Source: Carallia brachiata
Lineage: Eukaryota; Streptophyta; Magnoliopsida; Malpighiales; Rhizophoraceae
Direction: 5' to 3'
Length of the DNA: 64,000 bases
Assembly (NCBI GenBank): GCA_021464245.1
Contig: JADCRB010000109.1
Span: forward strand, 620,001-684,000
Numbering within the stretch: position 1 is the stretch's first letter; the number at the start of each line of letters is the position of its first letter. This document shows, in pieces, positions 5,705 through 61,526 of this stretch. Made by a program: the position numbers and the translations under genes. The notes beneath the pieces were generated by a model, which saw only the letters and a program-made list of their open reading frames with translations, was not told where the DNA came from and made no database searches.

Positions 5705-6660
5705 TGTGAATGAGACTCGTATGTTTCGAGCCTCAACAGTTAGACTGCGAAAATATGAGTACAAATTACAAATGAAAATTTAAAATAAAATACGAGTTCG
5801 ATCTTTGAGTAGATCCTCCGATTAATATTCCTGTGATTTGGTTAAGGGCTGTATGAGCTTGATCTTAACCAAAAGATGTTAAATTTCCACAGCGTGATCT
5901 TGAATTGTAGAAAAAAGATTCCACTGAGGGCCGAGACTTGATCTCAGGTGATGCTGGAACTCCAATGAGGGCCATAGAGGTTTAATCTCGTTCGAAATGA
6001 TTTAGTTTCGGTGAGGGTTGTATGAGCTTGGTCTCAAGCAGACTGATTTGACTCCAATGAGGGTTAGGGCTTGATTCCACTCGGACTGTTTAGCTTCGCT
6101 GAGGGCCGTAGAGACTTGTTTTCAGGTGGACTGACTCTGTTGAGGGATATAGGAAGTTTTATCTCAGACAAATGTTTAATATTTTAGATTTATACTCTTG
6201 CAGACCCAGATCTGAGGTGATAGGAAAGTATTAAACTCAAAATACACTTGAAAATGGGTACAAAATTTTTTTTTGGCTTTGTATCTGAGATATCTCCCTT
6301 TAACGAGTTAGGAGAGTATATCGCAGAGTACAAAAACGTAAGAAAATGAGAAATTTTCTTGAGAAATTTTTAATTTTTTCTTTTTCTCTCAAAATTTTCC
6401 TATTTATTAGATCCTTAATTAAACTAGGGGGCAAGGCCTATTTATAGGCCTCCCCTCTATTGTGTGATAATATGGCCACCAATTATTAAGTTGGTGGCCA
6501 TTGACCAGATTTGGTCGGCGGTTGCCGACCTTGGAAATTCAAGGTTGGCAACGCCGACCATTGATCAATAATTTTCTTTTTATTATTTTTACTCTTCTAG
6601 AAGCTTACCTTCTAGATTTTTTTTTTTTTTTACTTTTTTAAACAAAAAACGTATTTTATA
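5705..6660 (-). repeat. 3' LTR of element 1
   Basis: It begins TGTGAATGAGAC on the plus strand and ends with a mutated terminus (TTTTATA where the partner has TTTTACA). On the minus strand it has a TATAAATA box (6439-6446). Two inverted repeats sit beside it: GGCCACCAA/TTGGTGGCC (6474-6499) and a near-perfect 20-bp-armed hairpin (6513-6559). Confidence 0.85.
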
Positions 6661-7560
6661 AATGCCCTCACTTTAAGACTTGGTGACGAGGAACTCCGAG
6701 GATGTGATCCGAATCGAGTCTTGAAATCTAGTTTGAAACTTGAGATTTCTTGATAAATATTGAATGTTGAAGTCTTCTAACTCTGACTATGCCTACTGTT
6801 GTTGGATCTCGATAGAAACAATACGACCTTGAGAAAGTTAGCAGTCCAGCCAATATTGAAGTTTTGACTCTAGCTAATGTTGAATTTCTATAGCTCACAA
6901 AGGTTTTTTTATATGTCTTCAAGTTCCTCAGCTCTGGTGAGGGTGCTGCAGTTGGCAAAGAACTCGAACCTCCCTATGAGGAAGGCCCAGAACTATAGAA
7001 CTTCAACACCTGCGCACAGGGAGACAGCCTATAGTGATGATTCCCAAGTCAGATTCGACGTAAGGAGAGTAGTTGGAACTTCCCTGTACGTCGCGACATC
7101 TGAGAACAGATGAGGATGTTCATAGCTTCTCGTCCCTCTGTGGTATATGTGAACTAAGGAGAGTGGTTGGAACTCCATAACACCAATGACGTTGGAGGCT
7201 AAGATTTGAGAGCCTTTAGATATCCCTCGAAGTGGACTACTCTTTTTCTTCTTAGCTCGAACGCCTCCAGTTTCCTAATCATAGAACTTTCTGCAAGAGA
7301 AAGTGTAGGGGTTAGCCATTTCTTTTCAGAGAGAAAGAAGAGTTGAGGGGGTGAGTGCTGTGATTCTGACATGCATGATATATATACAAAAAATAGGTCT
7401 TTTTTTTTTTGAAAAGTCAAAAAGAGGATTCACGAAATCTGGCGGGGTCCTCCACGTCCTTTTCTTCTATAGGTGACAGAAAAGACGGCAGCGGACGCGC
7501 TTCGCAGAAGTCGTTACTATATACTGTCAAAGTCGTTGCGCCTTATCCTTATCTACCATC

Positions 7561-8179
7561 CTGGTGGGGCTCGAGGCCCAGCCCCCAAGTCAATCCTAGC
7601 CTCGTTCGGTGGGCCGATGATGTTGATGTCGCTGGAGCCTTCCGACGGGTTGATGCTGCTCGAATATTCTAAAAAGAAAGGTAAAATTTCGCCGAAATGA
7701 CTTCTTCCTGTTAGAAAAGTTTCCCTTAGACTTAAATACCCATGAGGGAGGAATCATTAACTGACTCCGTAAGATCACCAGGACTAGTACGCATACTCCC
7801 ACATGCTATGACTTTGATCGAAATATCCTAGAAAGATTATTGCAGTAGTAGAATTCGGACCTGCTTTATTTGAGGGTGAAACTGTACCGGTGAGATCTAC
7901 CATGAGAACAGTAGACTGTGTTTTAAAAATGGCATCTCTCAGCGCCGCTCTCTCGCTGTTCCTCCGATTCTGGAACAAAAAATGTACATTTTTTTCTTCG
8001 GCTGCCCCTAGTGGGCGTAATCGAGAGACAAGTTGATAAATCTATGACGTATTAGGAATAGTACCTCTATTGTTTTAGAAGAATTCCTCCAAAATTTACA
8101 ATTGCACCAAAGTTGGGAGCGATCTTGTCCGTGGTGACCTTTCTTCTTCCTTATCCTGTTGTTCTGCAGATAGTTCCAT
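7561..8179 (-). pseudogene. Decayed WUSCHEL-type homeobox gene inside element 1
   Basis: Translation from the ATG at 8179 on the minus strand stays alignable with the intact WOX ORF of element 3: ERSPRTR at the start of the homeodomain, then IYQLVSRLRPLG and FQNRR of helix 3. Three stop codons fall inside the homeodomain in that frame, and the WUS-box region (near 7690) is altered to ILPFFLEY. A frame change and loss of the native stop follow. It sits between the end of pol and the 3' LTR, as in element 3. It is non-functional, but it shows that the gene was already in the retrotransposon lineage when this older copy inserted. Confidence 0.85.
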
Positions 8180-8469
8180 TTTTCCTGCTGTAGAGGAGCA
8201 AAGGTCTATTATGGGGTGGAGATAAGTTGAGATTGAAGCAAAGACTCAGACCCTCCATCGCTTTTATATTTTTGGGCCGTTCACAGTTTATACTCATGCG
8301 GTCTAGAAGTTTTGGATTAAGCCTTGTGTGGTCGTTGCCATTTTGCCTTTTATACTCGTGCGGGCAAGAGTGTGTTATTGAACTGTGGTGTTGAATTGTT
8401 TACCTTTTATACTCATGCGAGGTATGAGTGTGTTGCTGTTGTGTTGTTGAGCTTCTGAACTGTTGAGTT

Positions 8470-8975
8470 GTTGAGCTACTGAATTGTTGACTCGAGTTTT
8501 AATTCAAGGTTTAGGCTTTGCCCCCGAATCTGGATTTGGACTTTGAGTTGGAATTTGGATTTGAGCTTTGAGCTTGGGTTTGCTGGGTTTATATTTGGCT
8601 TTGAATTTGAGCTTTGGACCCGAGTTTAAATTTGGACTAAATTTTGAACTGGAATTTGGATTTGGGTTTAGGATCAGCCCTCGAATTTGGATTTGAAACT
8701 TTTGGCTAAAATTTGGGAGTTTTGAACTCGAATTTGAGCCCAAATTCGGATTTGGGTTTTGAGCTTGGTTTGAGTTTGCATTTGGGCCGTCGGTTTTGAG
8801 TCGGGTTTGAGATCTGCCCCTAAATCTAAATTTGGATTTTGGGGATAAGTTCTGAACCTGCACATGAGTTCTTTCAGACTTTTTTTTTTTTTATCTTTTT
8901 CATTTTTTTCTTTTTTGAACTTCTTTTTTCTTTTTCATTTTTTTTGAATTGTTTTTTTTTTTGACTTTTTTTTTT
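8470..8975. repeat. Low-complexity spacer of element 1 (TTTGGATTTGGG-type repeats and T tracts)
   Basis: Degenerate repeats of the TTTGGATTTGGGTTT kind (about 8490-8860) are followed by T-rich runs (about 8880-8975). The same arrangement occurs in element 3 at 50900-51290. Open frames here (Asn/Pro/Lys/Ser-rich on minus) reflect composition and are not taken as genes. Confidence 0.75.
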
Positions 8976-9284
8976 TACATAACAATACTTTAAAGATTTA
9001 CCGTTTGATCAAAGCAGGTCGGGATGTGTTTTTGGTCTGTCAACCTGTAAGCGTAGATTGATGCTAACTTTCTTCTGACGGATCTGAAGAGATTGTAGTC
9101 TAGTTGGCTGAGGCTACATCTTCCTAGTCTAAAATGATTTTATTTTAGCCTATGAGCTTCAAGATTAGCTTCTTTAAGATGAAATACTTGTCGGTTGGAT
9201 GAATGACTGTGCGGTGATACTTGCAGAATTTCTGATCATTGACCCGATCATTCTGATTGGGTTGCTTGCATTACAGGAGTTTGA

Positions 9285-10388
9285 TTAGCTTAGCTTCCAA
9301 AAGTTGATCGAGAATGTCCGGAACATCAAGTCAGGGAATATATACTTTTTCTGTTCTAACTCTCGTGACGTCACCTTACCTCTTTCTTGTTGTTTTGGTT
9401 GATTTGCTGGCGCTGAAGGACTAACTTTTGCTTTAGCTCCGACTTTTATTGGTGAAGCATCAACAACCATCACTTCTTTGCCCCTATTTTGGCCTAGTTG
9501 GATGGAAATCGTGCCACTAGAGGTTTGATGCTTATCTCTATGTCATGCGCGCGAGGAGCCAATTCCTTGAAAGTTTGAGGTTTGATGCCCTGTAGCATGT
9601 ATAACAGTTCCCAGCTCATCCCCTGAATACACATTTCCACCGCAGAAGTCTCTGTCAGACGATCTTTGTAATTTAGGCTAAGAGTACGCAATCTACTTAT
9701 GTTTTCGATGACGGTCTCTATTTTCCTTTGCTTAGTGCTGGTGAGCTCCATCATACTTACTGTTCGACGGATGCTGAAAAATTTGTTGAGAAACTCACGT
9801 TGCAGCTGCTCCCAACTGTCGATTGATTCTGATTCAAGATTTATGAACTAGATAAAGGCAATGTCTTTGAGTGAACGAACAAACTGTTTCACCAAAAGGT
9901 CACCGTATGTTCTTGCATCGTTGCCAGTTTCGACGAAGTGAGCACATGCTACTTTGGATCACCTCGTCCATCGAAGTGTTGAAACTTGGGCGATTGGTAG
10001 CCCAAAGGCATGCTGAGATTTTCAATCCGCCTCGTGTACGGTTTGACGTATATTTGTAAACTTTGAAATGGTGGGCTTTTTGTAGGCAGATCGTATTTAC
10101 TATCATGTCCTGTAGTTGTTGGACAGATAGCAAAGCAGCAGAATTTGCAGGCAGCAGTTGTGTGGAACTGCTTGGTTGCTTTTTCGCAGTGAAGACGTTA
10201 GCTGGCGTTACTTCTAGAGTAAAACCAGGTGGATATGGTTGCTCTTTATTGGTTTCAGGATCGGCTTGAATCAGGGCCTTTTTTTTAGGCGGGAGATCTG
10301 TTGATTTTTTTCTTCCACAGCCTTGAGCAGTTGGAAAATTTTGCTTTCCAATTCCAGATTTTGTCTTTCCGCTAGTTGCGCTTGTCAT
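9285..10388 (-). pseudogene. gag remnant of element 1
   Basis: Broken minus-strand frames match the gag region of element 3 in order. The N-terminal part (10388-9900) has a Gln-rich segment and LQDMIVNTICLQ. The capsid part (9754-9494) contains MMELTSTKQRK and ETSAVEMCIQGMSWELLY. The C-terminal part (9473-9285) contains SPIKVGAKAKVSPSAP. These correspond to 57141-56237 of element 3. Gag forms the virus-like particle of LTR retrotransposons; here stops and frame changes prevent a complete product. Confidence 0.85.
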
Positions 10389-10464
10389 CGTGATTGTGAT
10401 AACGTCGATGTTGGATTCCTGCTTATTTTTTTTTAAAAGGAGTAAAAGATGAGAGGCAGAGATG

Positions 10465-10481
10465 TCCCGCTGGGCATGCCA
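10465..10481 (-). promoter_or_regulatory. Primer-binding site of element 1
   Basis: Just inside the 5' LTR the minus strand reads TGGCATGCCCAGCGGGA, nearly the same as TGGCACGCTCGGTGGGA in element 3. The position, 4-6 bases from the LTR end, and the conservation fit a tRNA primer-binding site; the tRNA is not assigned. Confidence 0.7.
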
Positions 10482-10485
10482 AATT

Positions 10486-11424
10486 TGTGAATGGACTCAT
10501 ATGTTTCGAGTCTCAACAGTTAGACTGCGAAAATACGAGTATAAACTAGAAGTGAAAATTTAAAATAAAATACGAGTTTGATCTCTGGGTAGATTCTCCA
10601 ATTAATGCTCATGTGATTTAGTCAAGGGCTATACGAGCTTGATCTTGACCGAAAGATGTTCAATTTTCACAGCGTGATCTTAAACTGTAGGAAACAGATT
10701 CCACTGAGGGCTGAGACTTGATCTCAGGTGGTGCTGGAACTCCAATGAGGGCCGTAGAGGCTTAACCTCTTTCATAATGGTCTAGTTTCGATGAAAGCGG
10801 TATAGTTTAGTCTTAGGCGGACTGATTTAACTCCAATGAAGGTCAGGACTTAATCTCACTTGGACTGTTTAACTCCGCTGAGGGTTGTAGAGGCATGTTC
10901 TCCGGTGGACCAATTCTGCTGGGGGCTGTAGGAAGTTTTATCTTAGACAAATGTTTAATATTTTAGATTTATACTCTCGCAAACTCAGATTTGAGACGAT
11001 CAGAGTATAAACCCAAAATATACTTGGAAATGGGTATAGCAAATTTTTTGGCTTTGTATCCAAAGTATCTCCCTCTAAGGAATTAGGAGGGTATACCGCA
11101 GAGTACAAAAACGTAAGAAAATGATAAATTTTCTTGAGAGATTTTCAATTTTTTATTTTTCTCTCAAGTTTTCCCTTTTTTTAGATCATAGAGGTGTTAG
11201 ATCCTTAATTGAACGGGGGGAGCCCTTGTGTGAAAATATGGCCACCAACTGTTAAGTTGGCAGTCGTTAACCTAGATTTTGTCAGCGGTTGTCGATTTTA
11301 GAAATTCAAAATTAGCAACGCGAGCTGTTGATCAATGATTTTATTTTTTTTTATTTTTCCTCTTTAAAGCTGACCTTCTAGATTTTTTTTTTTTTACAAA
11401 TTTTAACAAAAAACTTGTTTTACA
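10486..11424 (-). repeat. 5' LTR of element 1
   Basis: It is co-linear with 5705-6660, starts TGTGAATGGACT and ends TTGTTTTACA. Substitutions and indels are frequent compared with its partner, so the insertion is old. The hairpin seen at 6474-6499 is degenerate here (near 11238). Confidence 0.85.
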
Positions 11425-24600: not shown

Positions 24601-24657
24601 GAAACCTTTGGCTACTCGGTTGCTTTTAATCGTGTTATACGAAAAAGACTGTATTAG
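21621..24657 (+). pseudogene. NLR1: CC-NB-ARC-LRR resistance-gene homologue with one stop and one frameshift
   Basis: CNL family: intracellular immune receptors that detect pathogen effectors and switch through nucleotide exchange. From the family-like start at 21621, a TAA at 21717-21719 stops the frame after 32 codons. From ATG 21729 a frame runs to 23342 (about 537 residues). It has a charged coiled-coil-like N terminus, P-loop GMGGVGKTT (about 136-144), kinase-2 KFVLILDDVW, RNBS-B LLLTTR, CAGLPLAI, RNBS-D CLLYCSLFPEDYKI and MHD in VKMHDVIRDMAI. Near 23245 this copy lacks 2 bp that NLR2 has, shifting frame; the LRR part continues at 23260-24657 (465 codons). As read it could give only a CC-NB-ARC protein without LRRs. 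It is most like RPS2/RPS5-type CNLs. The breaks may be real or assembly errors. Confidence 0.88.
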
Positions 24658-26289: not shown

Positions 26290-27830
26290 GCTCGTTGTTT
26301 TCCTCAAGGAAACAACGACTTTGCAAGACGCTGACTAAACCTTTTTAACAAAGCAGGCACACTAAGTTAGGCTTTTTTTTTGTTTTTTTCAAATTTTTTT
26401 TAAAATTTAAACTAATTAGCTCAAAAAAAAAATAATTAAAAAAATAAAAAATTTAAACTCTTGAACTCTTCTTTTCACTTGCTAACTCATCTTTCTCCTG
26501 CTCTATGCTCAGGTCTTGACTGCATGTTATTATTATTATTTTTATTTATTTACTTTGGCTAAAAAAATAAACGATAAAAAGGCTTAAATTAGTTTTGGGT
26601 TTTAGAGGATTAGCTGCCGATGAGTAGGGGAGGAGGGTGAGGGAGATGGGAGTGTAACGGGTATATTTCGAGGTTAAAACAATTAAACTTGAAAATAAAA
26701 AAATAAATTATAATAAAAAAATTGTAAAATAAAAAGAAAATTTACGTGAGGTTAATCTCCATAGATCCTTCGATTAGTGTTCCTTTTTTGACTCCGTCAA
26801 GGGCTGCACGAGCTTGATCTTGACAGAAATAATTTCCACAGCTTTATCTTGAAGTGGGTATACTGAAACTGGATCTGATTTAGACGTTTAGACTACGGTT
26901 AAGAACCGCAGAGACTTGATCTAAGCCGATCTGGCTTAATTTCACCGAGGGTTGAATGGACTTATTCTCAGATGAGCTGCCTGAATTTTACTGAGGGCCG
27001 TATGAGACTTAATCCCAACGGGATTTGTAGTAATTTGATATTTTTAGATTTATTCTTATAAATTCAGATCTAGAACGATCGGAGAATTTAAACCCAAAAA
27101 TAACCTTAAAAATGGAAACGGCAAATTTTTTGGACTTACCCCTGAAATATCTCTAAAAAATAAGTTAAGAGAGTATACTGCAGAGTAAAACCACGTAGGA
27201 AAATGAGAAATTTTCTTGAGAGATTTTCAAAATTTTCTTTTTCTCTCAAATTCTCTGTATTTTTCTATTTACAGATTTGCTGAATCTCTGATTGAACTGG
27301 GGGAAAGAGCTTATTTATAAGCCCTTCTTTTGTTGTGGGAAATGAAATTTCAATTTGGCCCTTTGAAAATTTTTATGAACGTGGATGCTGGTGTTTGATT
27401 GGCTAGAAGAATGTGAGTGCTTGTGTGTAATTGGTTAGACGTTCTTTCAAGGATTTGGCTTTTTCTTTTTTGTTGGACGTTGGTTTTTTTTTTTTTTTTC
27501 TAGAATGCTTCTGTTCCAACTGCATCGGCCTATTTATAGGCCAGTAGATCCTCCTATTTCACCAACTCTCGCCCGCCAGATTAGAAAAATGCACAACGCC
27601 TGAAATGTGCATGCATCGTGGGTTTACTCTAACTTTTCAATAGGCCTTCTAAAGGTCTGACCATGATTTTTTTTTTTTAAATATTTACAGGGAGATATTT
27701 ATTTGGGCTTAGACCGCATTGCTTACGCCAACAAGTTTGAGTTGCCAAATTTAGATCTTGCTAGCAATCATTTGGATTAAAACCTCAAAGCCAAGAAGTT
27801 GCATTAAGGTTTTCCCATTCCCTTCTCTCT
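26290..27830 (+). pseudogene. Orphan NLR leader without a coding region, split by a solo LTR
   Basis: 26290-26640 and 27690-27800 match the NLR1 and NLR2 leaders in order: CTCAAGGAAAC...ACTTTGCA, GCAGGCACACTA, TTTCTCCTGCTCTATGCTCAGG, then GGGCTTAGACCGCATTGCTT and AAGTTTGAGTTGCC. The homology stops near 27800, before the predicted 3' splice site and start codon, and no NB-ARC sequence follows. It is best read as the 5' end of a lost NLR copy. Confidence 0.7.
26653..27689 (-). repeat. Solo LTR of the element-3 family
   Basis: It is co-linear with the element 3 LTRs (for example TTTTTTGACTCCGTCAAGGG and CTGCACGAGCTTGATCTTGA). It starts TGTAACGGG, ends TTTACA, and is flanked by a perfect 5-bp TSD GGGAG (26648-26652, 27690-27694). 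At 1,037 bp it is longer than the 770/812-bp LTRs and has two TATTTATA boxes (about 27314 and 27533), suggesting a subfamily or an internal insertion. LTR-LTR recombination removed the body. Confidence 0.88.
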
Positions 27831-48486: not shown

Positions 48487-48491
48487 TATAC

Positions 48492-49261
48492 TGTAAAGCG
48501 TAAATTTCGAGTATAAACAATCAAACTCGAAAATACAAAAATAAATTACAAATAAAAATTTAAAATAAAAGAAAATTTACGTGGTTCGATCTCTGTAGAT
48601 CCTCCGATTAGTGTTCCTTTTTTGACTCGGTCAAGGGCTGCACGAGCTTGATCTTGACAGAAATAAATTCCACAGATTTTTCTTGAATTGGGTGGACTGA
48701 AACCGGATCTGATTTGGACGTTTTGACTACGGTTAAGAACCGCAGAGACCTGATCTGAGCCGATCTGACTTAATTTCACCGAGGGTCGAAGGGACTTGTT
48801 CTCGGATGAGTTGCCTGGATTTTGCTGAGGGTCGTATGAGGTTTAATCACAGCCGGATTTGTAGTAATTTGAGATGTATATTCTCATAAATTCAGATGTA
48901 GGGCGATCGGAGAATATAAATCTAAAATAACTTTAGAAATGGAAACAGCAAATTTTTTGGGCTTTACTCCTGAAATATCTCTCAAAAAGGAGTTAGGAGA
49001 GTATACTGCAAAGTAAAAGCACGTAAGAAAAGGAGAAATTTTTTTGAGAGATTTTCAAAATTTTCTTTTTCTCTCAAATTCTCTGGATTTTTCTGTTTAC
49101 GGATTTGCTGAATATGTTTTGAACTGAGAGGCAGGGGCCTATTTATAGGGTTCCTTTCCCATGTGAACATCACATGGGAAATGAATCTTTTTAATTAATT
49201 TTTCTTTGGTTGACTTCTATATATATATATATTTTTTTTTTCTTTTTTTTCTTTGTTTACA
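48492..49261 (-). repeat. 3' LTR of element 3
   Basis: It is 770 bp. The minus-strand TATA box is at 49140-49147. Compared with the 5' LTR it lacks most of the 38-bp perfect palindrome present at 58673-58710 and has a few percent substitutions. Immediately inside, the minus strand reads AAGTGGGGGCATT, a likely polypurine tract for plus-strand priming. Confidence 0.92.
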
Positions 49262-50163
49262 AATGCCCCCACTTCAAGGGTCGGTAAGAAAGAATTTTAC
49301 AGAGATGATTCGAACCGAGTCTTGAAGTCCAGTTTGAAACTTGGAAACGTCCTGATGAACATTGAATCTTGGAGTCTTCTATCTTTGACCATGCCTGCTG
49401 TTGGTGGATCGCAATAGGAACCCGATACGATCTTGAGAAAGTTAACAGCCCAGCCAATATAAAAATTGACATTCTGGCTCCAGGTGAGTTCGAGCTTCCA
49501 TAGCCCGCAAAGGATTTTTTATATGTCTTAAAGTTCCAGAGCTCTGGTGAGGATGATCCGGTAGGCAAAGAACTTGAACCTCCCCAAGAGGAAGGCCCAG
49601 CACTTTGGAACTTTAAGACCTGCGCACAGAGAGACGGGTTATGGAACTTCCCTGCACGTCGCTGCATTTGTAGATCCAGGAGGACGATCAGAACTTCTCG
49701 GCTCGCTGCGATAGATGTGAACTAAGGAGAGTAGTTGGAACTCCATGACACCGATGGCGTTGGAGAATGAGTTTCGAGGTTTTAGGGATCCCTCGAGGAA
49801 GACTACTCCTTCTTTTCTTAGCTCGTGCGCCTCCAACTTCTTGATCAAAGAACTTCCTGAGACAAGTGCAGAGACTAGCCATTTTCTTTTGAGAGAAGAG
49901 CTGAGGGGTGAGTATTAGAACTCGGGAATGCAAGATATATATACATACGATAAAGATTTTTTTTTTTTTTTTTTGAAAAGTCAAAAAGAAGGTACGCAGA
50001 ATCGAGTAGGGTCCTCCACGTCCTTTCCTGCATAAGAGACAAAAGAGGCAGCGGCTGACGCGTGTCACGAAAGTCGTTACCGTGTGTTGCAGAAGTCGTT
50101 GCCGTGTGCTGCAGAAGTCGTTGCCGTGCTGCCAAAGTCGTTGCACTTATCTTGTCGGCCGTC
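49262..50163. other. 3' internal segment between WOX ORF and 3' LTR of element 3
   Basis: It is co-linear with 6661-7560 of element 1. It shows no convincing reading frame. It includes a T run at about 49961-49974 and a tandem array of a unit of about 22 bp (GAAGTCGTTGCCGTGTGCTG) at about 50069-50150, present in only about two units in element 1 (near 7505-7545). Confidence 0.6.
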
Positions 50164-50781
50164 CTAGCGGGGCCCGAGGCGCAGCTCCAAGTCAAGCTCG
50201 ACCTCGTCTGGTGGGCCGATGATGTTGATGTCGACGTCGCTTTCCGGCTGGTTGATGCTGCCGGAATATTCTGGAAAGAGAGGCAAAGTTTCGCCGGAAT
50301 GACTCCTTTCTGCTAGAAAAATTCCTCCTAGACTTAAGTACCTAGGAGGGATGAACCCTTGGCTGACTCCGTAAGACCACCAGGACCAGCGTGCATGCTC
50401 CCATGGGCTACGGCTTTGATGAACATACCGTGGAGAGACTATTGCAGTGGAAGAACTCGGACCTGCTTCATTTGACGGCGAAGTTGTACTGGTGGGATCT
50501 ACCATCGGAACAGCAGACTGTTCTTTGGAAAAATCAGCTCTCAGTGCTGGTTTCTTCCTGCTTCTCCGATTCTGGAACCAATAAAACACATTTTTTCCTT
50601 CGATTGCCCCGAGTGGGCGCAATCGTGAGACAAGTTGGTAAATCTGAGATGCATTAGGCATAATACCTCCATTGTTGTGGAAGACTTCCTCTAGAATTTG
50701 CAGTTGCGCCATGGTTGGTTGCCACCTTGTGCGGGGTGACCTTTCTTCTCCCTTGTCTTGAGGTTCTGCAACTGGTTCCAT
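50164..50781 (-). CDS. WUSCHEL-clade homeobox transcription factor captured by a retrotransposon
   Basis: An uninterrupted 205-codon minus-strand ORF. Residues 17-80 form a WOX homeodomain: TRWQPT at its start, LQILEEVF in helix 1, YQLVSRLRPLG before the third helix, and KNVFYWFQNRRSRKK as recognition helix with the invariant W-F-x-N. Residues 164-170 (ETLPLFP) match the WUS-box consensus TLxLFP. The C terminus (LDLELRLG, 197-204) is an LxLxL EAR-like repression motif. All three elements together define the WUS clade, whose members bind DNA in the nucleus and control stem-cell identity, recruiting TOPLESS-type corepressors. The ORF lies 3' of pol, in sense with the element and before the 3' LTR. 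No intron interrupts it, compatible with capture of spliced RNA. Element 1 has a decayed orthologue at the same place. Whether it is expressed is unknown. Confidence 0.9.
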   Translation of the reverse strand: MEPVAEPQDKGEERSPRTRWQPTMAQLQILEEVFHNNGGIMPNASQIYQLVSRLRPLGAIEGKNVFYWFQNRRSRKKPALRADFSKEQSAVPMVDPTSTTSPSNEAGPSSSTAIVSPRYVHQSRSPWEHARWSWWSYGVSQGFIPPRYLSLGGIFLAERSHSGETLPLFPEYSGSINQPESDVDINIIGPPDEVELDLELRLGPR

Positions 50782-50884
50782 CTTTCTTGTGGCAGAGGAG
50801 CAAAGGTCTGGTGTGTGGTGAAGATCGGTTGAGACTGATGCTGAGTTTCAGACTCAAACCCTCCGTTGCTTTTATATTTTTGGG

Positions 50885-51230
50885 CCGTTCACAGTTTATA
50901 CTCATGCGGGCCAGGAGTTGGATTGGATTTTGAACTTGGGTTCTGGACTGTGTTGAACTTGGAATTTTTGGGTTTTGGGCTTTGGATTGGATTTGGGTTG
51001 AGTGTTTGGGTTTTAGACTTGATTTTTGGATTTGGGTCGAGTGGGTTTGGGATTTGACTTTTGGATTTGGGTTGAGTGTTTGGGTTTTGAGTCTGGACTT
51101 AGTTTTCAAGCTTTTGAGTTGGGTTTTGAGTTTTCTGAATTGGGCTCAAGTGTTTGGGTTTGGATTTTCGCTTGGTCTTTCAGATCGGGACTTCGCAATT
51201 TTTTTTTTTTGATTTTTTTTTCTATTTTTT

Positions 51231-51261
<31 letters not shown>

Positions 51262-51297
51262 GATTTTTTTTCTTTTTTTTTTTTTTTTTAAACATAT
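50885..51297. repeat. Low-complexity spacer between pol and WOX ORF, element 3
   Basis: GGATTTGGGTTGAGTGTTTG-like degenerate repeats (50915-51180) are followed by a block of about 100 bp that is nearly all T (51198-51290) on the plus strand, that is, poly(A) on the element's sense strand. The same order is in element 1. The A-rich block directly 5' of the captured gene is notable. Confidence 0.8.
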
Positions 51298-52606
51298 TTA
51301 CACATAATATTGTTTCAGAAATTTACCATTGATTGGGCCGATTCGGACGCCTTCTTGGTCTGACAGCATGTAAGCGTTGTGAGTATAGGCCTCCTGCACT
51401 AGGTATGGCCCGTCCCATTTGGAAGTAAGCTTGTCACCAGGCCGATGCTTCATGTTGATGGGCCGTCGCACTGCAAGAACAAGGTCTCCAACTTGAAAAG
51501 ATCGAGGGCGGACCCTGCGGTTGAATGTGTTGGTGAGCCGGCTTGGTAGCACTCAAGTTGCTGTTGTGCTTCGAGCCTCCTTTCATCAGAGCTTCTAACT
51601 CATCCAGACGTAGGCGAGCATTCTCCTCCTGTGTGAGTCCTTCCAGAACAGCCATGCGCAGGGATGGAATCTGTGTTTCCAACGGCAGTATTGCTTCGAC
51701 ACCGTAGACAAGTGAGTATGGCGTCGCCTGTGTTGGAGTCCGGTAAGTTGTACGATACGCCCATAATGCCTCCGGAATTCTGTCATGCCAATCTCTTTTG
51801 GATTTAGAGACTACCTTCGCAACAGGTTGCATAAGGTCTTGTTGAATGCTTCGCCAAGCCATTTGCTGGGGCATTGTACATGGATGACTTGTACTGCTTG
51901 AACTTGAACTTCTCGCAGAGCTTGTCGATTAAGCTGTTGTAGAACTGCTTACCATTATCAGTGATGATGAATCGAGGGACTCCATAGCGATAGATCAGCT
52001 GAGTCCGGATGAAATTGGCAACATGCTCCTTCTTTACCTCTCTAAGTGGAATGGCTTCAGCCCATTTTGAGAAGTAGTCGGTTGCTGCGAGGATGTACAG
52101 GTGACCCAGGGATGACTTTGGCAAGGGCCCCACTAAGTCGAGACCCCAAGCTTCAAAGGGCCAGGATGAGACAGTTGGATGCAGTGGCTCCGGTGGTTGA
52201 TGTATGTAATTCGCATGAAATTGACAAGCTTGACAGTTTTAGCAAACTCAATTGAATCACGTACCATGGTTGGCCAGTAGTATCCCATCCTTCTGAGTTG
52301 GAAGTGCAACTTAGGCCCTGATTGATGTCCGCCACAAACACCAGAATGTGCTTCAGTGAGAGCTTTTTGCCTCTTCATTGCTAGGCAGCGAAGTAAAACT
52401 CCATCAAAAGACCTTCGATACAGAGCATCCTTGAGATATATGAAGCGGGGAGCTCGTCGTTGAATTTCTGTCTTATGACGACGATCTTCGGGCAGCTTCC
52501 CGTGCTGTAGGTAGTCAATGATTGGTTGGCGCCAATCCTCGTCCTCCGCGAGACGTACAGATACAGCGTTGGCTGCTGTAGTTTCTTCATCATCCTTCTG
52601 TGGCAC
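51298..52606 (-). pseudogene. Integrase of element 3, three frameshifts
   Basis: 52606-52133 begins the integrase with the zinc-binding region (EAHSGVCGGHQSG; YYWPTM); frame is lost near 52240, before the Cys pair is completed. 52133-51804 holds the catalytic core with D in ATDYFSKW and D in IITDNGKQF. Frame breaks near 51852 and 51818 separate it from 51874-51434 (SKSKRDWHDRIPEALWAYRT) and displace the catalytic Glu. 51552-51298 is the C-terminal DNA-binding part (GDLVLAVRR; KLTSKWDGPYLV). Integrase inserts the cDNA into the genome; this copy cannot make it. Confidence 0.88.
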
Positions 52607-53595
52607 TATCCATTTCTGGCATACGGCAACAACTGTAGCCTGGATTTCTGACTTTGCAAGAGAGTGGCCAGGTTAGCCAACGCGTCTGCCTGAGTGTTTT
52701 CTCGTCGAGGCACATGCTCCAAGGTGATGCTTTCAAATTCATCCATTAGCTGTCGAGCACGTTGATGGTAAGGCGCAAGGTCCTCTTTCTTCACGTCATA
52801 CAATCCTGTAAGTTGGTTGATGACGAGCTGGGAATCTCCATGGACTTCTATAGTTGGAATCTTCATATCGACAGCCATTTGAAGACCAATGATCAAAGCC
52901 TGGTATTCAGCAACATTATTTGAACATAACTCACCGAGAATGATAGCATATGGTAGTATTTGTCGTTGAGGAGTGACAAACACTATGCCGGCACCAGCAC
53001 CATCACGCCTTGCTGCACCATCAAAGAACATCGTCCATGGTGGCAGTGTCTCAATGTAAAAGACCTCTTCATCTGGAAGATCATCTGTGAACTCCCAATC
53101 TGACGGAACAGGGTGATCTGCAAGGAAGTCTGCTAGAGCTTGTCCTTTGACTGCTTTTTGAGGCACGTAGACAATGTCGTAGCTTTGTAGGATTACTGCC
53201 CACTTGGCAAGTCGTCCTGACAAGATTGGTCTAGATAAGATATATTTGACAGGATCAGCTCTGGCAATGAGACGTACCGTGTGAGCTTGCATGTAGTGCC
53301 TCAGCTTGTCAATGGCAAAGAACAGTGCTAGACATGTCTTTTCAATGGGCGAATAACTCAGCTCCGGACCGTTTAGTGTTCTGCTCAAGTAGTACAGGGC
53401 AACTTCCTTTCCCTGCTCGTTTTCCTGTGCAAGCAAGGCTCCCAAAGATCTTTCCTGCGCTGCAATGTAGAGAATCAACGACTTTCCTTGAATTGGAGCA
53501 CCTAGGACCGGTGGATTGGAAAGGTACTTCTTTATGCTCTCAAAGGCTTTGCTGCAAGCTTCGTCCCACTCGAAGTTGACATCCTTCTTCATCAA
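52606..53595 (-). CDS. RNase H plus archaeal-type second RNase H, element 3
   Basis: One 329-codon open frame. The first half is the RT-linked RNase H region (ILYIAAQERSLGALLAQENE; YYLSRTL; YSPIEKTCLALFF; YILSRPILSGRLAKW). The second half is a separate RNase H fold with MFFDGAARRDGAGAG (Asp192), NNVAEYQALIIGL (Glu230), VHGDSQLVINQL (Asp254) and ENTQADALANL (about Asp306), a complete DEDD set. This dual arrangement is the diagnostic trait of Tat-type gypsy elements. The fragment is part of a once-continuous polyprotein; breaks lie on both sides. Confidence 0.88.
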   Translation of the reverse strand: MMKKDVNFEWDEACSKAFESIKKYLSNPPVLGAPIQGKSLILYIAAQERSLGALLAQENEQGKEVALYYLSRTLNGPELSYSPIEKTCLALFFAIDKLRHYMQAHTVRLIARADPVKYILSRPILSGRLAKWAVILQSYDIVYVPQKAVKGQALADFLADHPVPSDWEFTDDLPDEEVFYIETLPPWTMFFDGAARRDGAGAGIVFVTPQRQILPYAIILGELCSNNVAEYQALIIGLQMAVDMKIPTIEVHGDSQLVINQLTGLYDVKKEDLAPYHQRARQLMDEFESITLEHVPRRENTQADALANLATLLQSQKSRLQLLPYARNG

Positions 53596-53621
53596 CCGAT
53601 GGAAAGGTTGACATCTCCCAG

Positions 53622-54619
53622 CTAAATTGGAGATGAAACGGCGAATGTAGCCAGCTTTCCTTGTAGACTTCGCAGCTCGTGCAGGTTTTTAGGTTCAGGC
53701 ATCTTTTGAATTGCCTCAACCTTTGACTGATCAACTTCGATTCCACGATGGCGCACCACGAACCCAAGAAACTTTCCTGATGTGACACCGAATGCGCACT
53801 TGAGAGGGTTCATTTTGAGCTGATGCCTCCGAAGTCTTTCGAACACTGTCTTGAGATCCTCGAGGTGGTCTTTGCGCTTCTTAGTCTTTACAACTAAGTC
53901 ATCAACATAACATTCTACAATCTTGTGCAGCATGTCATCAAAAATTTTTTGCATAGCACGTTGATAAGTGGCGCCAGCATTTTTCAATCCAAACGGCATA
54001 ACTTTGTAGCAGTATATACCTTTTGGGGTGCGGAATGCTGTCAACTCCTCGTCTTCTGGTGCCATTCTGATTTGGTTATAGCCTGAAGAACCATCCATGA
54101 AGGACAATGCTTCGTGACCCGTTGTTGCATCGACTGTGATCTCCGTTATGGGCAACGGAAAGTCATCTTTCGGGCAGGCCTTGTTAAGATCTCGAAAATC
54201 AACACATACCCTCAACTGTCCATTCTTCTTTCTTACCGGGACAATGTTGGCAATCCACGTTGGGTAGGTGACCTCTAGGATGAAGCCGCATTGATCAGCT
54301 TGTTCACCTCCTCCTCGATTTGTGGAATGAGTTCCGGGCGGAACCGTCGTTGTGGCTGCTTGACAGAACGAACACCCTTCTTTACTGCTAGACGATGCAC
54401 CGCAATTTTTGGGTCAAGTCCAGGCATTTCTTTGTAACTCCATGCGAACACGTCCCTGTATTGACTTAATACCTGAACATATTCTTGCTCTTCTTCTGCA
54501 GTAAGTAAAGCACTTACAAATGTAGGTCGAGGATCTTCCGGAGAGCCAAGATTGACCTCCTTGAGTTCATCAACAGTTGCTTGGCCACCATCTTCAAGTT
54601 CCGGGGGAGCCTCCTTCAC
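53622..54619 (-). pseudogene. Reverse transcriptase of element 3
   Basis: 54619-54275 encodes the RT N-terminal part (YRDVFAWSYKEMPGLDP; RRFRPELIPQIEEEV). After a frame break near 54270, 54215-53622 encodes RVCVDFRDLNKACPKD, FPLPITEI, FMDGSSGYNQI, MPFGLKNAGATYQRAM and the catalytic YVDD at residues 103-106. It copies genomic RNA to cDNA. All catalytic motifs are present, but the frame is split and shifts again at about 53620. Confidence 0.9.
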
Positions 54620-54652
54620 TTCACCATCTGATGAGTCGACTCAGCCTCCTCG

Positions 54653-55751
54653 CTAATGTGACATGAAATAGCCTCTGACTTCACCTTCTTTGTTTGACTG
54701 GATAAGCCTGTCTTGTTTGGTGGTGGTGATGGCACGTGCATCAGCTGCTCGGCTTCGGCTCTTTAGCGTGATCCGCACAGGTGACTTCTCCTGATAGCCT
54801 AAGCCAGGTCGGGACTGTGATGTTTGAGAAGCGCCATGTGTGGACGGCAGCGTACCCATTGTGCTCGGGTTTGAGAAGTCATAGCCCGCCTTTGCCAAAA
54901 GCTTGTATGCATTAGGATCAAATCCTTCATGTGTTCTTCTTTCTGGAAGTGAGCCGCCTTCGACTGCCCCCGTGTGTGGTTTGACGAAGCCTTTTAATGG
55001 TTTTGAAGACAAAACCGGCTCAATCTTTGGTATCGGCAGAGTGTAAGTCTCCTTCAGGTTGTGCAGCTCCTTTGTTTTGGGTTGGCTATGACCTTGCTCC
55101 TGTTTAAGATCAATACAATAAGAGAAAGGGGGTTGACCTTCTGAGCGTCGTGACTTCGGCACATAGCGTAGGACTGGAGTGGAGCTTGAAGATGCAACAT
55201 CCTTCGGACGAAGTTCAGCAGGCTGTGGCAGCTTTTCATTTGTTGGAGTCTGAGGTTGAGCATTGGCAGGTTCTTCGACAGCTTTTCCCTTTTTGTGGAT
55301 GCCCCCAGTCCAAGTAGCTTTTGATGGAATGATCTCCGGATTGTCTGTGTCGGTAGAAGACTGCATCCGCCAAATGTGATTCAGCATCATCGAACGGCTT
55401 TAAGTCAGCATTGACCTTTTGAACGCCACCATTGTAGTACTTGAAGCACTGATGCAGGCTTGAGAGCACAACTCCATTTCCATGAATCCACGGTCGTCCT
55501 AGCAACATCTTATATGTGGTACGTGCATCAATCACGTGAAATAGAGTGCTAGAAGTGAGATTACCGATAGTTAGCTCCAAGCGAATCATCCCAATTGCTT
55601 TCTGTCCTCCTTGATTAAAGCCATGAATCATCAAGCGGCTGTCTGATAATTCATCAATGCCGATGCCGAGCTCCTTTATGGTGGATTTTGGGATAATATT
55701 GACTGCTGAGCCATCGTCGATCAGAATACGTCGGACCTTCTGTTCTTTCAC
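54653..55751 (-). pseudogene. Aspartic protease and linker of element 3
   Basis: 55751-55236 encodes the protease: RRILIDDGSAVNIIP (active-site Asp in the DGS context), LMIHGFNQGGQKAIG, TTYKMLLGRPWIH. It overlaps 55390-54653, a Pro/Ser/Lys-rich linker toward RT with DPNAYKLLAKAGYDFSNPST; the frame changes between them. The protease would process the Gag-Pol polyprotein. Confidence 0.82.
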
Positions 55752-57756
55752 ATAGCCTGATACATACAGCGGCCGATTGTGGGGTTTGGACCCCAGCAGG
55801 AGATCCTCATCTGAAAATGAGATAGCAGAGTAACATCCGACGTGATTTTGGTCCGCTGTTGCTCCGCTGAGTTAGAATCATTTGATGGAGTTCAGCTGAG
55901 GTCTGGAGAGTATTGCTGACTTGATTTTGCCACACTTCTGTTGTTGCAAAGCTATAAACAGCTGAGGGTTAGCGAGAAGGGTTTGGAGAGCTTCATATAC
56001 CTTCTCCGTTGTCGACTTTTTGTTGTCGAGCGGCTCCTCCTTACGGTGTGTCACCTCTTCTGATGGTTTTGAAGTGATGGTGGTCTGGTTTGCAGAGTTA
56101 TGCCTTCCTGGTCCAGAATGATTTTATTCTGGCTTTTGAGCTTCATGATTAGCTCCTTCAGGACGAAACACTTCTCGGTTGGATGACTTACTATCCGGTG
56201 ATATTTGCAGAATCTCGATCGCTGACTCGATCCTTTTCATTCGGCCCGCTTGCACTCTGGGAGTTCGATCAGCTTCGCCTCCAAGAGTTGTTCAAGAATG
56301 TCGGGGACGTCTGAGTCGGGGAATGGATACTGCTTCTGCTCCAACTCTCGCAATGTCACCTTCCGCCTTTCCTGTTGTTTTGGCTGAGTTATTTGGGTCG
56401 GAGGATTTACCTTAGCTTTGGCGCCCACTTTTACTGGTGCGGCTTCAACAGTCATCACTTCTTTCCTTTTCCGGAGCTGTTGGGTTTCTTAATCTCCCTT
56501 CTGCCCCCTTGCTGGTCCAACTGGATGGGAACCGTGCCTCCGGAAGTCTGGATGCTTATCTCCATATCATGTGCGCGGGTCGCCAGTTCTTCGAAAGTTC
56601 GGGGTTTGACACCCTGCAGGATGTATAACAGCTCCCAATGCATTCCCTGGATGCACATCTCCACGGCAGAAGTCTCCGTCAGGCGATCTTTGCAGTCCAA
56701 GCTGAGGGCACGCCATCTGTTGATGTATTCGACAACGGGCTCTCCTTTCCTTTGTTTGGTGCTGGTAAGCTCCATCATACTTACCGTCCTTCGAGTGCTG
56801 AAAAATCTGTTGAGGAACTCTCGTTGTAGCTGTTCCCAACTGTCGATCGATTCTGGTTCAAGATTTATGAACCAGGTGAAAGCGGTCTCCCTGAGTGAAC
56901 GAACAAACTGCTTCACCAAGAGATCTCCGTAAGTCCCTGCGTTGTTGCAGGTTTCAACGAAGTGGGCGATGTGCTGTTTGGGATCGCCTCGTCCGTCGAA
57001 TTGTTGAAATTTGGGCGGCTGGTAGCCCAAGGGCATGTTGAGACTTTCGATCCGTCTGGTGTACGGTTTGACGTACATCTGTGATCCTTGGAAGGATGTA
57101 GCTTGTTGCAGTCGGATCGTATTGGCTATCATTTCCTGCAATTGTTGAACAGATAGCGAAGCTACAGAATTTGAGGGTGGCAGCTGTGTAGAACTACCTG
57201 GTCGCTTTTCTGCAGGAAGACGTCGGCTGGTGTGGCTTCTGGAGTGAAACCGGGTGGATATGGTTGCTCCTCGCGGATTTCGGGATCAACTTGGATCGGG
57301 GCTTTCCTTTGAGAGCGGCGATCTGTTGATCTTTTTCCTCCACGACTCTGATCAGCTGCAAAATTTTGTTCTCCAATTCTGAAATTCTTTCCTCTGTGCT
57401 GGTTGTGTTGGTCATCATGACGGCAACAGATGAGGCTCCGGAAAGACTGGGGGAGAAAACTCTTCTGATTCTTCTGTGTGGTCGATTTGGATTCTGTTGA
57501 GCAGGCTTCGTCGTGTTGCCCCCGATTCGATCGGGGTGGGTGATCGACTCCTCCATGCGGCAAGAGAGTCAGGGGAGAGATCCTGTTGTGCGAGCTGTGG
57601 ACTCTCCATTTCGATATTTTGTCGGGTTTGGACGGCAAGAAATTGTGTCCGTCCCCGGGTTTCTGGACCTGCGTACCCAGGTAGGGTAGTTGATGCAGGC
57701 AATGGAGCCGTTGCCTTCTTTTTTGTGGCAGCAGTTGTACTCCTTTTCGGTGCCAT
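55752..57756 (-). pseudogene. gag of element 3
   Basis: The start is at ATG 57756 (MAPKRSTTAATKKK). The first frame runs to 57415, then frame changes. A predicted coiled coil (ERISELENKILQLIRVVEEK) lies in 57556-57194. The capsid part is 57141-56455: KFQQFDGRGDPKQHIAHFVE, TWFINLEPESIDSWEQLQRE, FLNRFFSTRRTVSMMELTST, ending near a Lys-rich tail. 56458-56237 continues in another frame (APVKVGAKAKVNPP; DSDVPDILEQLLEAKLIEL). 56236-55752 is the broken gag-protease junction. Gag builds the particle that houses reverse transcription. Confidence 0.85.
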
Positions 57757-57777
57757 TTGATGTGCTGAACACCTGTA

Positions 57778-57930
57778 AATTTTTTTTTTTTTTACTTTTT
57801 ACTTTTTTTACTTTTTACTTTTTTTTACTTTTTTTTTACTTTTTACTTTTTTTTTACTTTTTACTTTTACTTTTTTTTTTTTTACCTTTTTTTTTTTTTT
57901 TTAAGGAACAAGAGATGGGAGGTGAAGATG
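57778..57930. repeat. T-rich (TTTTTACTTTT)n tract in the untranslated leader of element 3
   Basis: Tandem TTTTTACTTTTTAC units (about 57778-57903) lie between the primer-binding site and gag. Confidence 0.85.
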
Positions 57931-57947
57931 TCCCACCGAGCGTGCCA
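57931..57947 (-). promoter_or_regulatory. Primer-binding site of element 3
   Basis: The minus strand reads TGGCACGCTCGGTGGGA seven bases after the 5' LTR end, nearly identical to the corresponding site in element 1. This fits a tRNA primer-binding site; the tRNA is not assigned. Confidence 0.75.
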
Positions 57948-57953
57948 AAAATT

Positions 57954-58765
57954 TGTAAAGCGTAAATTTCGAGTCTAAAACAATTAAACTCGAAAATACA
58001 AAAATAAATTACAAATAAAAATTGTAAAATAAAAGAAAATTTACGTGGGGTCGATCTCCGTAGATCCTCCGATTAGTGTTCCTTTTTTGACTCCGTCAAG
58101 GGCTGCACGAGCTTGATCTTGACAGAAATAATTCCACAGCTTTTTCTTGAACTGGGTAGACTGAAACCGGATCTGATTTGGACGTTTTGACTACGGTTAA
58201 GAACCGCAGAGACCTGATCTGAGCCGATCTGACTTAATTTCACCGAGGGTCGAAGGGACTTGTTCTCGGATGAGCTGCCTGGATTTTACTGAGGGCCGTA
58301 TGAGGTTTAATCCCAGCCGGATTTATAGTAATTTGAGATCTATATTCTCATAAATTCAGATCTAGGGCGATCGGAGAATATAAATCTAAAAATAACTTTA
58401 GAAATGGAAACAGCAAATTTTTTGGGCTTTACCCCTGAAATATCTCTCAAAAAGGAGTTAGGAGAGTATACTGCAAAGTAAAAGCACGTAAGAAAAGGAG
58501 AAATTTTCTTGAGAGATTTTCAAAATTTTCTTTTTCTCTCAAATTCTCTGGATTTTTCTGTTTACGGATTTGCTGAATATATTTTGAACTGAGGGGCAGG
58601 GGCCTATTTATAGGATTCCTTTCCCATGTGAACATCACATGGGAAAGGAATCTTTTTAATTAATTTTTCTTTGGCCGGCGTTGCTGATTTTGAAATCAGC
58701 AACGCCGGCCTTTGACTTCTATATATATATATATTTTTTTTTTTTCTTTCTTTTCTTTGTTTACA
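57954..58765 (-). repeat. 5' LTR of element 3 with double U3 hairpin
   Basis: It is 812 bp. The minus-strand TATA box (TATAAATA) is at 58605-58612. Upstream of it on that strand lie two perfect inverted repeats: 58614-58652 (17-bp arms, 5-base loop AACAT) and 58673-58710 (18-bp arms, 2-base loop). Both fall in U3. Transcription of the element would start just left of the TATA box. Confidence 0.93.
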
Positions 58766-58770
58766 TATAC

Positions 58771-60276: not shown

Positions 60277-61526
60277 GGATCCGTTTGAAGACGCTGTCAG
60301 TTTTTTATTTCTATTTTTCATTTTCTGTTTTTTTATTTTTGCTATTTATTAAATTTTTGTATTTATTGCTGTCAATTTTTGTTTTTTTTATAAGAATAAA
60401 AAAATAGATAAAAAAAGGATAGTGAGAGAAATGGTAAAAAGAGTATAAATATAGAGAGGAAAATGGGAGAGAGAGAGAGAATGAGTAAAGAGAATGGTAG
60501 AGAGAGAAAAAGGAGAGAGAAAGAGAGAAGAAAGAGAATGAGTATAGAGAATGACAGAAAGAGAAAGGATAAAGAAAGAAAGAGTAAACAGAATAGTAGA
60601 TAGAGAAAAATGAGAGAGAGAGGGTAGAGAGAGAATGAGTAGAGAAAATGACAAAGAGAGAAAAGAGAGAAAGGGTAGAGAAAGAACAAGTAAAGAGAAT
60701 GATAGAGAGAGAAAAATGAGAGAGGACGGTAGAGAGAGAATGAGTAGAGAGACTGATAAAACAAGAAAAAAAAGAGTCTGGGTAGAGAGAGAATGAGTAG
60801 AGAGAGAAAAAGGAGAAAGAAAGGGTAGAGATATAATAATAGAGCGAGAAAAAGAAGAGAGAATGTGGGTAGATAGAAAGGAGAGAGAATCTGAGTAAAC
60901 AGAGAATGGTAGAGAGAAAAAAGAGAGAGAGAGAGAGAGAGGGCAGAGAGAGAACGAGTAAAGAGAATGATAGAGCAAGAAAAAGAAGAGAATGGTAGAG
61001 AGAAAAAAATGAGAGAGAGAGCAAGTGTACAGAGAATGAGTAGAGAGAATGGTTGAGGGAGAAAAAGGAGAGAGAGTGAGTGGATAGAGGGATAATTAGT
61101 AGAGAGAATGGTAGAAAGAGAAAAAGGAGAAAGAGGGTAGAGAAAGAATGAGTAAAGAGAGAAGAGAGAGAGAGAATGGTAGAGATAGAAAAAGAGAGAG
61201 AGGGTAGAGAGAGAATAGTAGAGATAGAAAAAGGCAAGAGAGGGTAGAGAGATAATGAGTAGTGAGAGAAAAAATATAGAGAGATAGACAGATGATGAGT
61301 AATGATAAAAGGGTAAATAGAGAGAAAACAGATTGTGAGAGAAAGTATAGAAAAAAAGTGAAAAATAAAATCAGAAAGTTAGTTTTATTATTTTTCTAAT
61401 TCATTTTTTTAAAAAAACACTTTTCAACAAAAAATAGAAAACAAAATTAATACCAAACATGTTTTCTGTTTTTTTTATAAAAAATAAACAAAAAAACATA
61501 AAATAAAATCCATTCCAAACGGAGCC
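60277..61526. mobile_element. Tourist/PIF-Harbinger-type MITE with GA-rich minisatellite, copy B
   Basis: TIRs GGATCCGTTTGA and CCAAACGGAGCC (inverse GGCTCCGTTTGG) are flanked by the 3-bp TSD TTA (60274-60276, 61527-61529). The interior is the reverse complement of copy A: degenerate GGTAGAGAGAGAATGAGTA units over about 900 bp. The long Ser/Leu/Phe frames on the minus strand (60311-61237 and others) are composition artefacts. Confidence 0.82.

Follow-up and report, generated by a model that had tools for sequence, protein, structure and literature searches.

The window analysed here is a stretch of 64,000 nucleotides from the genome of Carallia brachiata (contig JADCRB010000109.1, positions 620,001 to 684,000), and its positions 48492-58765 hold, on the minus strand, a Tat-type Ty3/gypsy long terminal repeat (LTR) retrotransposon that carries a WUS-type homeobox open reading frame (ORF) as an additional gene. 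The element has TG...CA ends, a 5' LTR of 812 bp (57954..58765, minus strand) with the TATA box TATAAATA and a palindrome lying upstream of it, and a 3' LTR of 770 bp (48492..49261, minus strand). It is flanked by the target site duplication (TSD) GTATA, for which no strand applies, at 58766..58770 adjoining the 5' LTR and at 48487..48491 adjoining the 3' LTR. A putative primer binding site (PBS), TGGCACGCTCGGTGGGAC, was placed by inspection at 57930..57947 (minus strand), and the polypurine tract (PPT) AAGTGGGGGCATT stands before the 3' LTR at 49262..49274 (minus strand). In between, Pfam matches on the same strand follow the gypsy order: the gag core (56455..57285; Retrotrans_gag PF03732, E 1.7e-15), an aspartic protease region (55236..55871; PF13650/PF13975, below the curated cut-off), reverse transcriptase (53622..54413; RVT_1, E 4.2e-35), native RNase H followed by a second RNase H in the Tat arrangement (52606..53688), the integrase core (51804..52238; rve, E 1.7e-11) and an integrase C-terminal part (51298..51552; SH3_Tf2-1, below the curated cut-off).

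Assignment to the Tat lineage rests on the second RNase H (aRH) between the native RNase H and the integrase, a mark of angiosperm Tat elements according to excerpts of PMC6317226 and PMC10508981: in the ORF 53688-52606 the RT_RNaseH match spans residues 69-170 and RVT_3, which is probably the archaeal-type aRH, residues 222-341, with the integrase following both. Pfam detected no chromodomain after the integrase, SH3_Tf2-1 being the only match in 51298-51552 and that below cut-off, in agreement with the Tat lineage proposed by the first-pass annotation. The element is not filed as Retand because four antisense ORFs of the window copy gave no Pfam match of any kind and hence none to TRP28, a domain whose antisense ORF lies between pol and the 3' LTR in 97% of Retand clusters in the excerpted text of PMC11963269. 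That annotation had likewise described a TSD-flanked gypsy element with a sense ORF of 205 codons between pol and the 3' LTR, which we confirm on the minus strand. Its term "full-length" holds for the LTRs, the TSD and the gag-to-integrase domains and fails for the reading frames: by inspection, gag-pol is scattered over many overlapping frames, for which reason the window copy is regarded as degraded, while the homeobox ORF is still open.

The homeobox ORF occupies 50164..50781 on the minus strand as a single exon, identified from its open frame, Pfam and comparison with the PDB, and its product contains the three motifs at the residues already proposed from the letters of the DNA: the homeodomain at residues 17-80 (50542..50733, minus strand; Pfam, PDB and structure prediction), the WUS box ETLPLFP at 164-170 (50272..50292, minus strand) and the C-terminal EAR-like motif LDLELRLG at 196-203 (50173..50196, minus strand). 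Both the WUS box and the EAR-like motif are corepressor-recruiting motifs, and WUS itself maintains stem cells and recruits TOPLESS. The Pfam homeodomain PF00046 matches residues 17-77 (E 2.3e-12), and the nearest relative in the PDB is WUSCHEL 6ry3 (E 2.7e-18, residues 16-80). AlphaFold2 predicts three confident homeodomain helices, with low confidence elsewhere (mean pLDDT 61), and the top chains retrieved by Foldseek are WUS homeodomains, headed by 6ryd in complex with TGAA DNA (E 3.6e-5, TM score by target 0.84). The residues of WUS that read bases are R38, Q89, N90 and R94 in the excerpted text of PMC7203112; their counterparts R19, Q70, N71 and R75 are invariant in 31 aligned element proteins, and a second type of homeodomain found in the family (type B) likewise retains all four. 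At the position of WUS S36 the element protein has R17; the same excerpts report that the S36R exchange in WUS raises TAAT binding about six-fold.

The host genome (337,529,591 bases in 164 contigs) was searched by protein and by DNA patterns, the latter allowing up to 3 mismatches and controlled with reversed patterns. In the protein search 150 of 2325 candidates were scored, each with at least 88% identity over at least 187 residues. The search of the host genome with the homeodomain, which the first-pass annotation had recommended, gave 645 places (reversed control 0), to which the type B pattern added 141 (reversed control 0); a 41-bp pattern from the block upstream of the ORF matched 930 places (reversed control 0) and an integrase pattern 748. 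With a gene scored as present on an upstream block, homeodomain or protein match, the listed set of 100 exact integrase places has it 0.3-3 kb downstream and on the same strand in 83 cases (median distance 1077), and in none when it is sought upstream or on the other strand. Six of the 17 integrase places lacking a match at first were fetched, and all six carry the gene with more changes. All eight fetched places that had the block and no exact homeodomain match hold gene sequence (only part of it in L092 and L093): five of the second homeodomain type, one chimera and two of the first type. The gene is therefore neither restricted to this locus nor absent from other members, the two outcomes that the first-pass annotation had named as refuting, and belongs to the standard make-up of the family. 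The claim that the element captured a WOX gene as an accessory gene is thereby supported. If all 930 places were full length, the family would make up roughly 2.8% of the assembly.

Copies L001-L070, picked by protein similarity, served as the main sample. An open homeobox frame is present in 51 of them (31 different proteins), and a polypurine tract and LTR start lie downstream of the gene within 1 mismatch in 64 of the 70. Among the 51 open copies TLPLFP is exact in 38 and LxLEL occurs in 49.

A few features of individual copies deserve mention. The homeobox gene of L096 resembles a chimera of types A and B, a sign of recombination between copies. Six copies (L038, L056, L047, L070, L042 and L068) are derivatives without the integrase core which have retained the homeobox gene; in L038 only a few hundred bases separate the primer binding site region from where the integrase region ends. 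As an argument for selection in cis these integrase-less copies are weak, since their frames are open in only 2 of 6 cases versus 49 of the 64 others (p 0.04, in a sample picked by similarity), and the argument was dropped. L038 and L070 have, upstream of the homeobox ORF, a tandem array whose units measure about 45 bp and contain CACGAGTATAAAAGGCGACA; by eye, most units bear a TATA-like box. The 5' LTR of the window copy holds at 58673-58710 a perfect inverted repeat, GGCCGGCGTTGCTGATTT, with 18-bp arms, which the 3' LTR lacks; related palindromes lie near the same position in other copies. Downstream of the homeobox gene, a small ORF (MASLCTCLRKFFDQEVGGARAKKRRSS..., 49688..49882, minus strand) recurs over its first 34 or so codons and is variable thereafter; its start was found in 61 of the 70 copies, four of them with a stop.

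The host genome also holds WUS genes of its own and further WOX genes at other loci. In both host WUS genes (WUS1, L071, joined as 308 residues; WUS2, L072) the homeodomain lies in the first exon and the WUS box and EAR motif in the third, as judged from open frames with splice-like ends, whereas the element gene has the homeodomain, WUS box and EAR-like motif in a single exon; the contrast of three exons with one fits the capture of a spliced transcript. The span from RW to WFQN is 53 residues in element types A and B, in host WUS1 and WUS2 and in 175 database proteins collected as WUS-like, and 52 in each of the seven other host WOX proteins compared; because its homeodomain holds this WUS-type extra residue, the element gene is taken to descend from WUS rather than from another WOX. 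Of the 64 residues of its homeodomain, 32 match those of host WUS1, and RRSRKK follows WFQN in the element protein where WUS has HKARER. Host WUS1 itself is closest to Erythroxylum novogranatense (64-66%), then to Malvaceae, Ricinus and others, which by itself would make Malpighiales the likely order of the host. A protein database of 5.8 billion sequences was queried with one element sequence (419 matches) and with a ten-row profile (251 matches; 7990 candidates scored), and no relative above 53% identity was found among the matches listed (the best 120 of 419 and the best 120 of 251). Matches up to 53% identity cover about a third of the element protein, and those listed are WUS, WOX or unnamed homeobox proteins by name, save one with another name. 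A search of IMG/VR for relatives found none. The family may perhaps be confined to the lineage of the host plant, or simply be unannotated elsewhere.

Relative to the window copy, the gene of L002-L030 has a median DNA identity of 97.8% and the integrase 98.3% (28 of the 29 copies), while the spacers reach 84.0 and 85.5%; in L031-L070 the gene stands at 93.3% and the spacers at 84.6 and 84.1%. Over the whole ORF the median ratio of non-synonymous to synonymous substitution rates (dN/dS) is 0.43 (845 pairs with dS above 0.05 among the 51 open copies), and the ratio of the corresponding proportions (pN/pS) in those copies is 0.175 for the homeodomain, 0.68 for residues 81-160 and 0.58 for residues 161-205. 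A segment of the integrase gives 0.367 (50 copies), to which the homeodomain is lower and the whole ORF, at 0.45, higher. Homeodomain variants shared by at least two copies comprise 9 silent and 5 replacing changes, over 43 silent and 149 replacement sites, and the comparison with residues 81-205 yields p 0.02 for all variants and p 0.07 for shared ones. Ten copies picked by WUS similarity (L081-L090) give 0.31 for the homeodomain and 0.86 for the rest, and the window copy compared with an old pseudogene in the same window gives 0.32 and 0.90. By these ratios, constraint is on the DNA-binding homeodomain with little on the middle of the protein.

No other non-coding stretch of equal length in the aligned region is as conserved as the 139 bp before the ATG (50782..50920, minus strand): per 30-bp bin the majority base accounts for 0.94-0.99 over the last 130 bp, compared with 0.55-0.93 further upstream and 0.77-0.98 beyond the downstream end of the ORF. 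The block has the TATA box TATAAAAG at -95 (50876-50869) along with a GGCCCA motif. Its 39-bp core is present within 3 mismatches in 66 of the 70 copies, it aligns at 95-99% in all ten of the further copies L081-L090 and only in part in L080, and it is kept in copies without integrase. An own promoter is reported for Grande gene23 in the excerpted text of PMC7264820, and by analogy the block directly upstream of the homeobox ORF may serve as a putative internal promoter.

Both old and recent copies are present in the window. The LTRs of the element at 48492-58765 differ by a Kimura two-parameter (K2P) distance of 0.029 (22 substitutions in 769 columns), and those of an older family member that lacks most of pol (5705..11399, approximate ends, minus strand) by 0.196 (117 transitions and 33 transversions in 898 columns), a seven-fold difference. 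The older element holds the homeobox pseudogene used above (7566-8179; 78.7% DNA and 61% protein identity, with stops), and an LTR fragment of the family (86%) lies at 26653..27319 on the minus strand. With a substitution rate of 1.3e-8 per site and year, the two elements would have ages of roughly 1 and 7.5 million years. Between one copy of homeodomain type A and one of type B, dS is 0.47 and dN 0.13, which gives a ratio of 0.27 (by Fisher's test on rounded counts, p about 0.0006); at the same rate their split would date to about 18 million years, and the capture of the gene would be older than that. Seventeen similar copies (L014-L030) share 97.9-99.4% identity over about 2.4 kb, and the spread of the family has therefore also been recent.

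Taken together, the gene is very probably an accessory gene of the element, and the explanation that we favour, with reasonable though lesser confidence, is that a captured host WUS message has been kept as a regular third gene acting as a WUS-type regulator. A Tat-type Ty3/gypsy family would long ago have taken up a spliced host WUSCHEL message and retained it in sense between integrase and 3' LTR. The gene would be expressed from the upstream block as its own short mRNA, and the protein would enter the nucleus, bind TGAA/TAAT-type sites through its WUS homeodomain and use its WUS box and EAR-like motif to recruit corepressors of the TOPLESS type. That the protein is a DNA-binding repressor is probable on its sequence; a WUS-like nuclear repressor with perhaps a broader choice of DNA is the likeliest form, given the base-reading residues kept, R17 at the place of S36 and the corepressor motifs. 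Probably it would act in trans, with host genes of meristem-type cells as targets, and so favour the expression or inheritance of new copies. The more specific steps are put forward tentatively. Host stem cells or the germline are a possible target at somewhat less than even odds, and it is a little more doubtful still that the regulator, made from its own promoter in shoot or floral meristems, holds or enlarges a germline-forming, stem-cell-like pool in which the element copies itself. Under that last proposal types A and B would be diversified regulators with different targets.

A number of observations weigh against this explanation. The WOX tree that had been suggested was built from 69 columns; it joins ten element rows in one clade (100/100) on a long branch whose place it does not fix, element plus WUS not being rejected (p-AU 0.388). 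In L031-L070 the integrase (98.75%, in the 33 of 40 copies having one) stands above the homeobox gene, and the 13 codons of the WUS-box stretch have a ratio of 1.4 with few silent changes, which amounts to no constraint by pN/pS. The choice of L001-L070 by protein similarity favours conserved copies; when 14 copies were instead selected on integrase or upstream DNA, broken ones included, the homeodomain gave a weaker 0.42 and residues 81-205 gave 0.59. The upstream block might, instead of a promoter, hold a splice acceptor just before the ATG. Nineteen of the 70 copies are broken or odd in length, and the 5' LTR shows no enrichment of TGAA or TAAT, whose counts lie below the shuffled means.

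The low site counts bear equally on the rival that comes closest, namely that the protein is a self-regulator akin to retroviral Tax or Tat, binding its own LTR or internal block and tuning transcription of the element. The strongly conserved 139-bp block would offer such a protein a possible target. The U3 regions, however, differ among copies sharing the gene: of the 70, one palindrome type is seen in 17, a different module in 25, a third in 5 and only a further palindrome in 3, and in the remaining 20 none of the four modules was found or the U3 was not reached. As a general mechanism, autoregulation by way of the palindrome ATTCCTTTCCCATGTGA/TCACATGGGAAAGGAAT that precedes the TATA box of the LTR was dropped because that palindrome occurs in only 17 of 70 copies (3 mismatches) and TGAA/TAAT are not enriched. 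Since WUS-type sites are not enriched in the 5' LTR and the U3 is not constant, self-regulation through the LTR lacks support and action on host genes is preferred; the self-regulator is considered rather unlikely. As a separate observation on L001-L070, near-identical homeobox genes are accompanied by very different 3' LTR U3 modules before a similar TATA region, a diversity that looks like promoter swapping by recombination.

Slightly less plausible is a decoy, by which the protein would pair with host WUS or take up corepressors and thus weaken a WUS-dependent defence or silencing in stem cells. Such a role would be in keeping with the WUS box and EAR-like motif kept in most open copies and with a protein of 205 residues, against 308 in host WUS1, whose middle has diverged; yet the four base-reading residues are kept and, among the three long regions compared, constraint is strongest on the homeodomain, neither of which a pure decoy would need. 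The broken copies, with the weak constraint on the middle and C-terminus, would suit a mere passenger that spreads with the element unused, but the regular linkage of the gene with integrase, the constraint on the homeodomain and upstream block and the ratio of 0.27 between the two old homeodomain types render this very improbable. Last, a host WOX gene cluster invaded by parts of an element, or an assembly artefact, has no point in its favour and is refuted by the genome-wide homeodomain counts and the integrase linkage: TSD, PBS and PPT frame the gene in the window copy, hundreds of copies are spread over many contigs, those listed having integrase at a similar distance upstream, and the host has its own WUS and WOX genes elsewhere.

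Outside the element, the window contains a disease resistance-type gene at 39854-42301 with NB-ARC and RPS2-like LRR matches, others similar by eye at 21720-24654 and 61762-62691, and long low-complexity tracts of SLYHSLYSFSLY-like repeats, open in several frames, at 42713-43650 and 60311-61378 on opposite strands.

The captured WUS-type regulator matters in that this extra gene derives from a plant regulator that is among the best understood, with known structure and DNA sites, which makes its role for the element directly testable. It also bears on the route by which transposons of plants, whose germline is set aside late, gain entry to it, since LTR elements account for 26 of the 54 transposable element families that are raised in shoot stem cells of vegetative Arabidopsis, in the excerpted text of PMC7560203. 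Should the meristem-pool proposal prove true, this would be a transposon steering host cell fate in order to enter the next generation.

No LTR element with a WUS or WOX gene was found among the open-licence PMC papers listed, judged by titles and abstract starts; the WOX surveys PMC5501002 and PMC6482515, as excerpted, deal with transposable elements near WOX genes rather than WOX genes within them, and the sunflower paper PMC11728184 describes other additional ORFs, with no mention of WUSCHEL or homeodomain in its main text. In excerpts of PMC9289625, a survey of 121 angiosperm genomes, extra domains of LTR elements include B3 and YgdH (LONELY GUY-family), while homeobox, homeodomain, PF00046 and WUS are not mentioned in its main text. 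Against the WUSCHEL proteins, host WUS1 and WUS2 included, the element protein has in common the homeodomain fold, base-reading residues, extra residue, WUS box and EAR-like C-terminus, and unlike host WUS it is encoded in one exon, has 205 residues and carries RRSRKK for HKARER. Retand and Ogre elements of the Tat lineage, in the excerpts available (PMC11963269, PMC7264820, PMC6317226), likewise have a dual RNase H before the integrase, an extra ORF between pol and the 3' LTR, tandem repeats near that ORF (here in L038 and L070) and non-autonomous derivatives. Their ORFs, however, are antisense in Retand and mostly TRP28, the antisense extra ORFs being without described clear similarity to known proteins in the excerpted PMC7264820, whereas the ORF reported here is in sense and is a WUS homeobox. 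In maize Bs1 and other gene-capturing LTR elements host sequence also lies inside the element, usually in sense, but genes transduced as in Bs1 exist in one or a few copies according to the same excerpts, in contrast to the hundreds of copies under selection here. Excerpts of PMC9289625 describe Ty3/gypsy elements of Phalaenopsis that carry an AlkB-type m6A demethylase; here too a host gene has become fixed as an extra gene in the gypsy elements of one plant lineage, that gene being an enzyme and ours a developmental transcription factor; the Citrus LTR elements with YgdH in the same source hint that uptake of meristem-related genes may have happened on more than one occasion. Tat elements with conserved extra ORFs are already known, and what is new is a developmental homeobox gene captured and kept in hundreds of copies.

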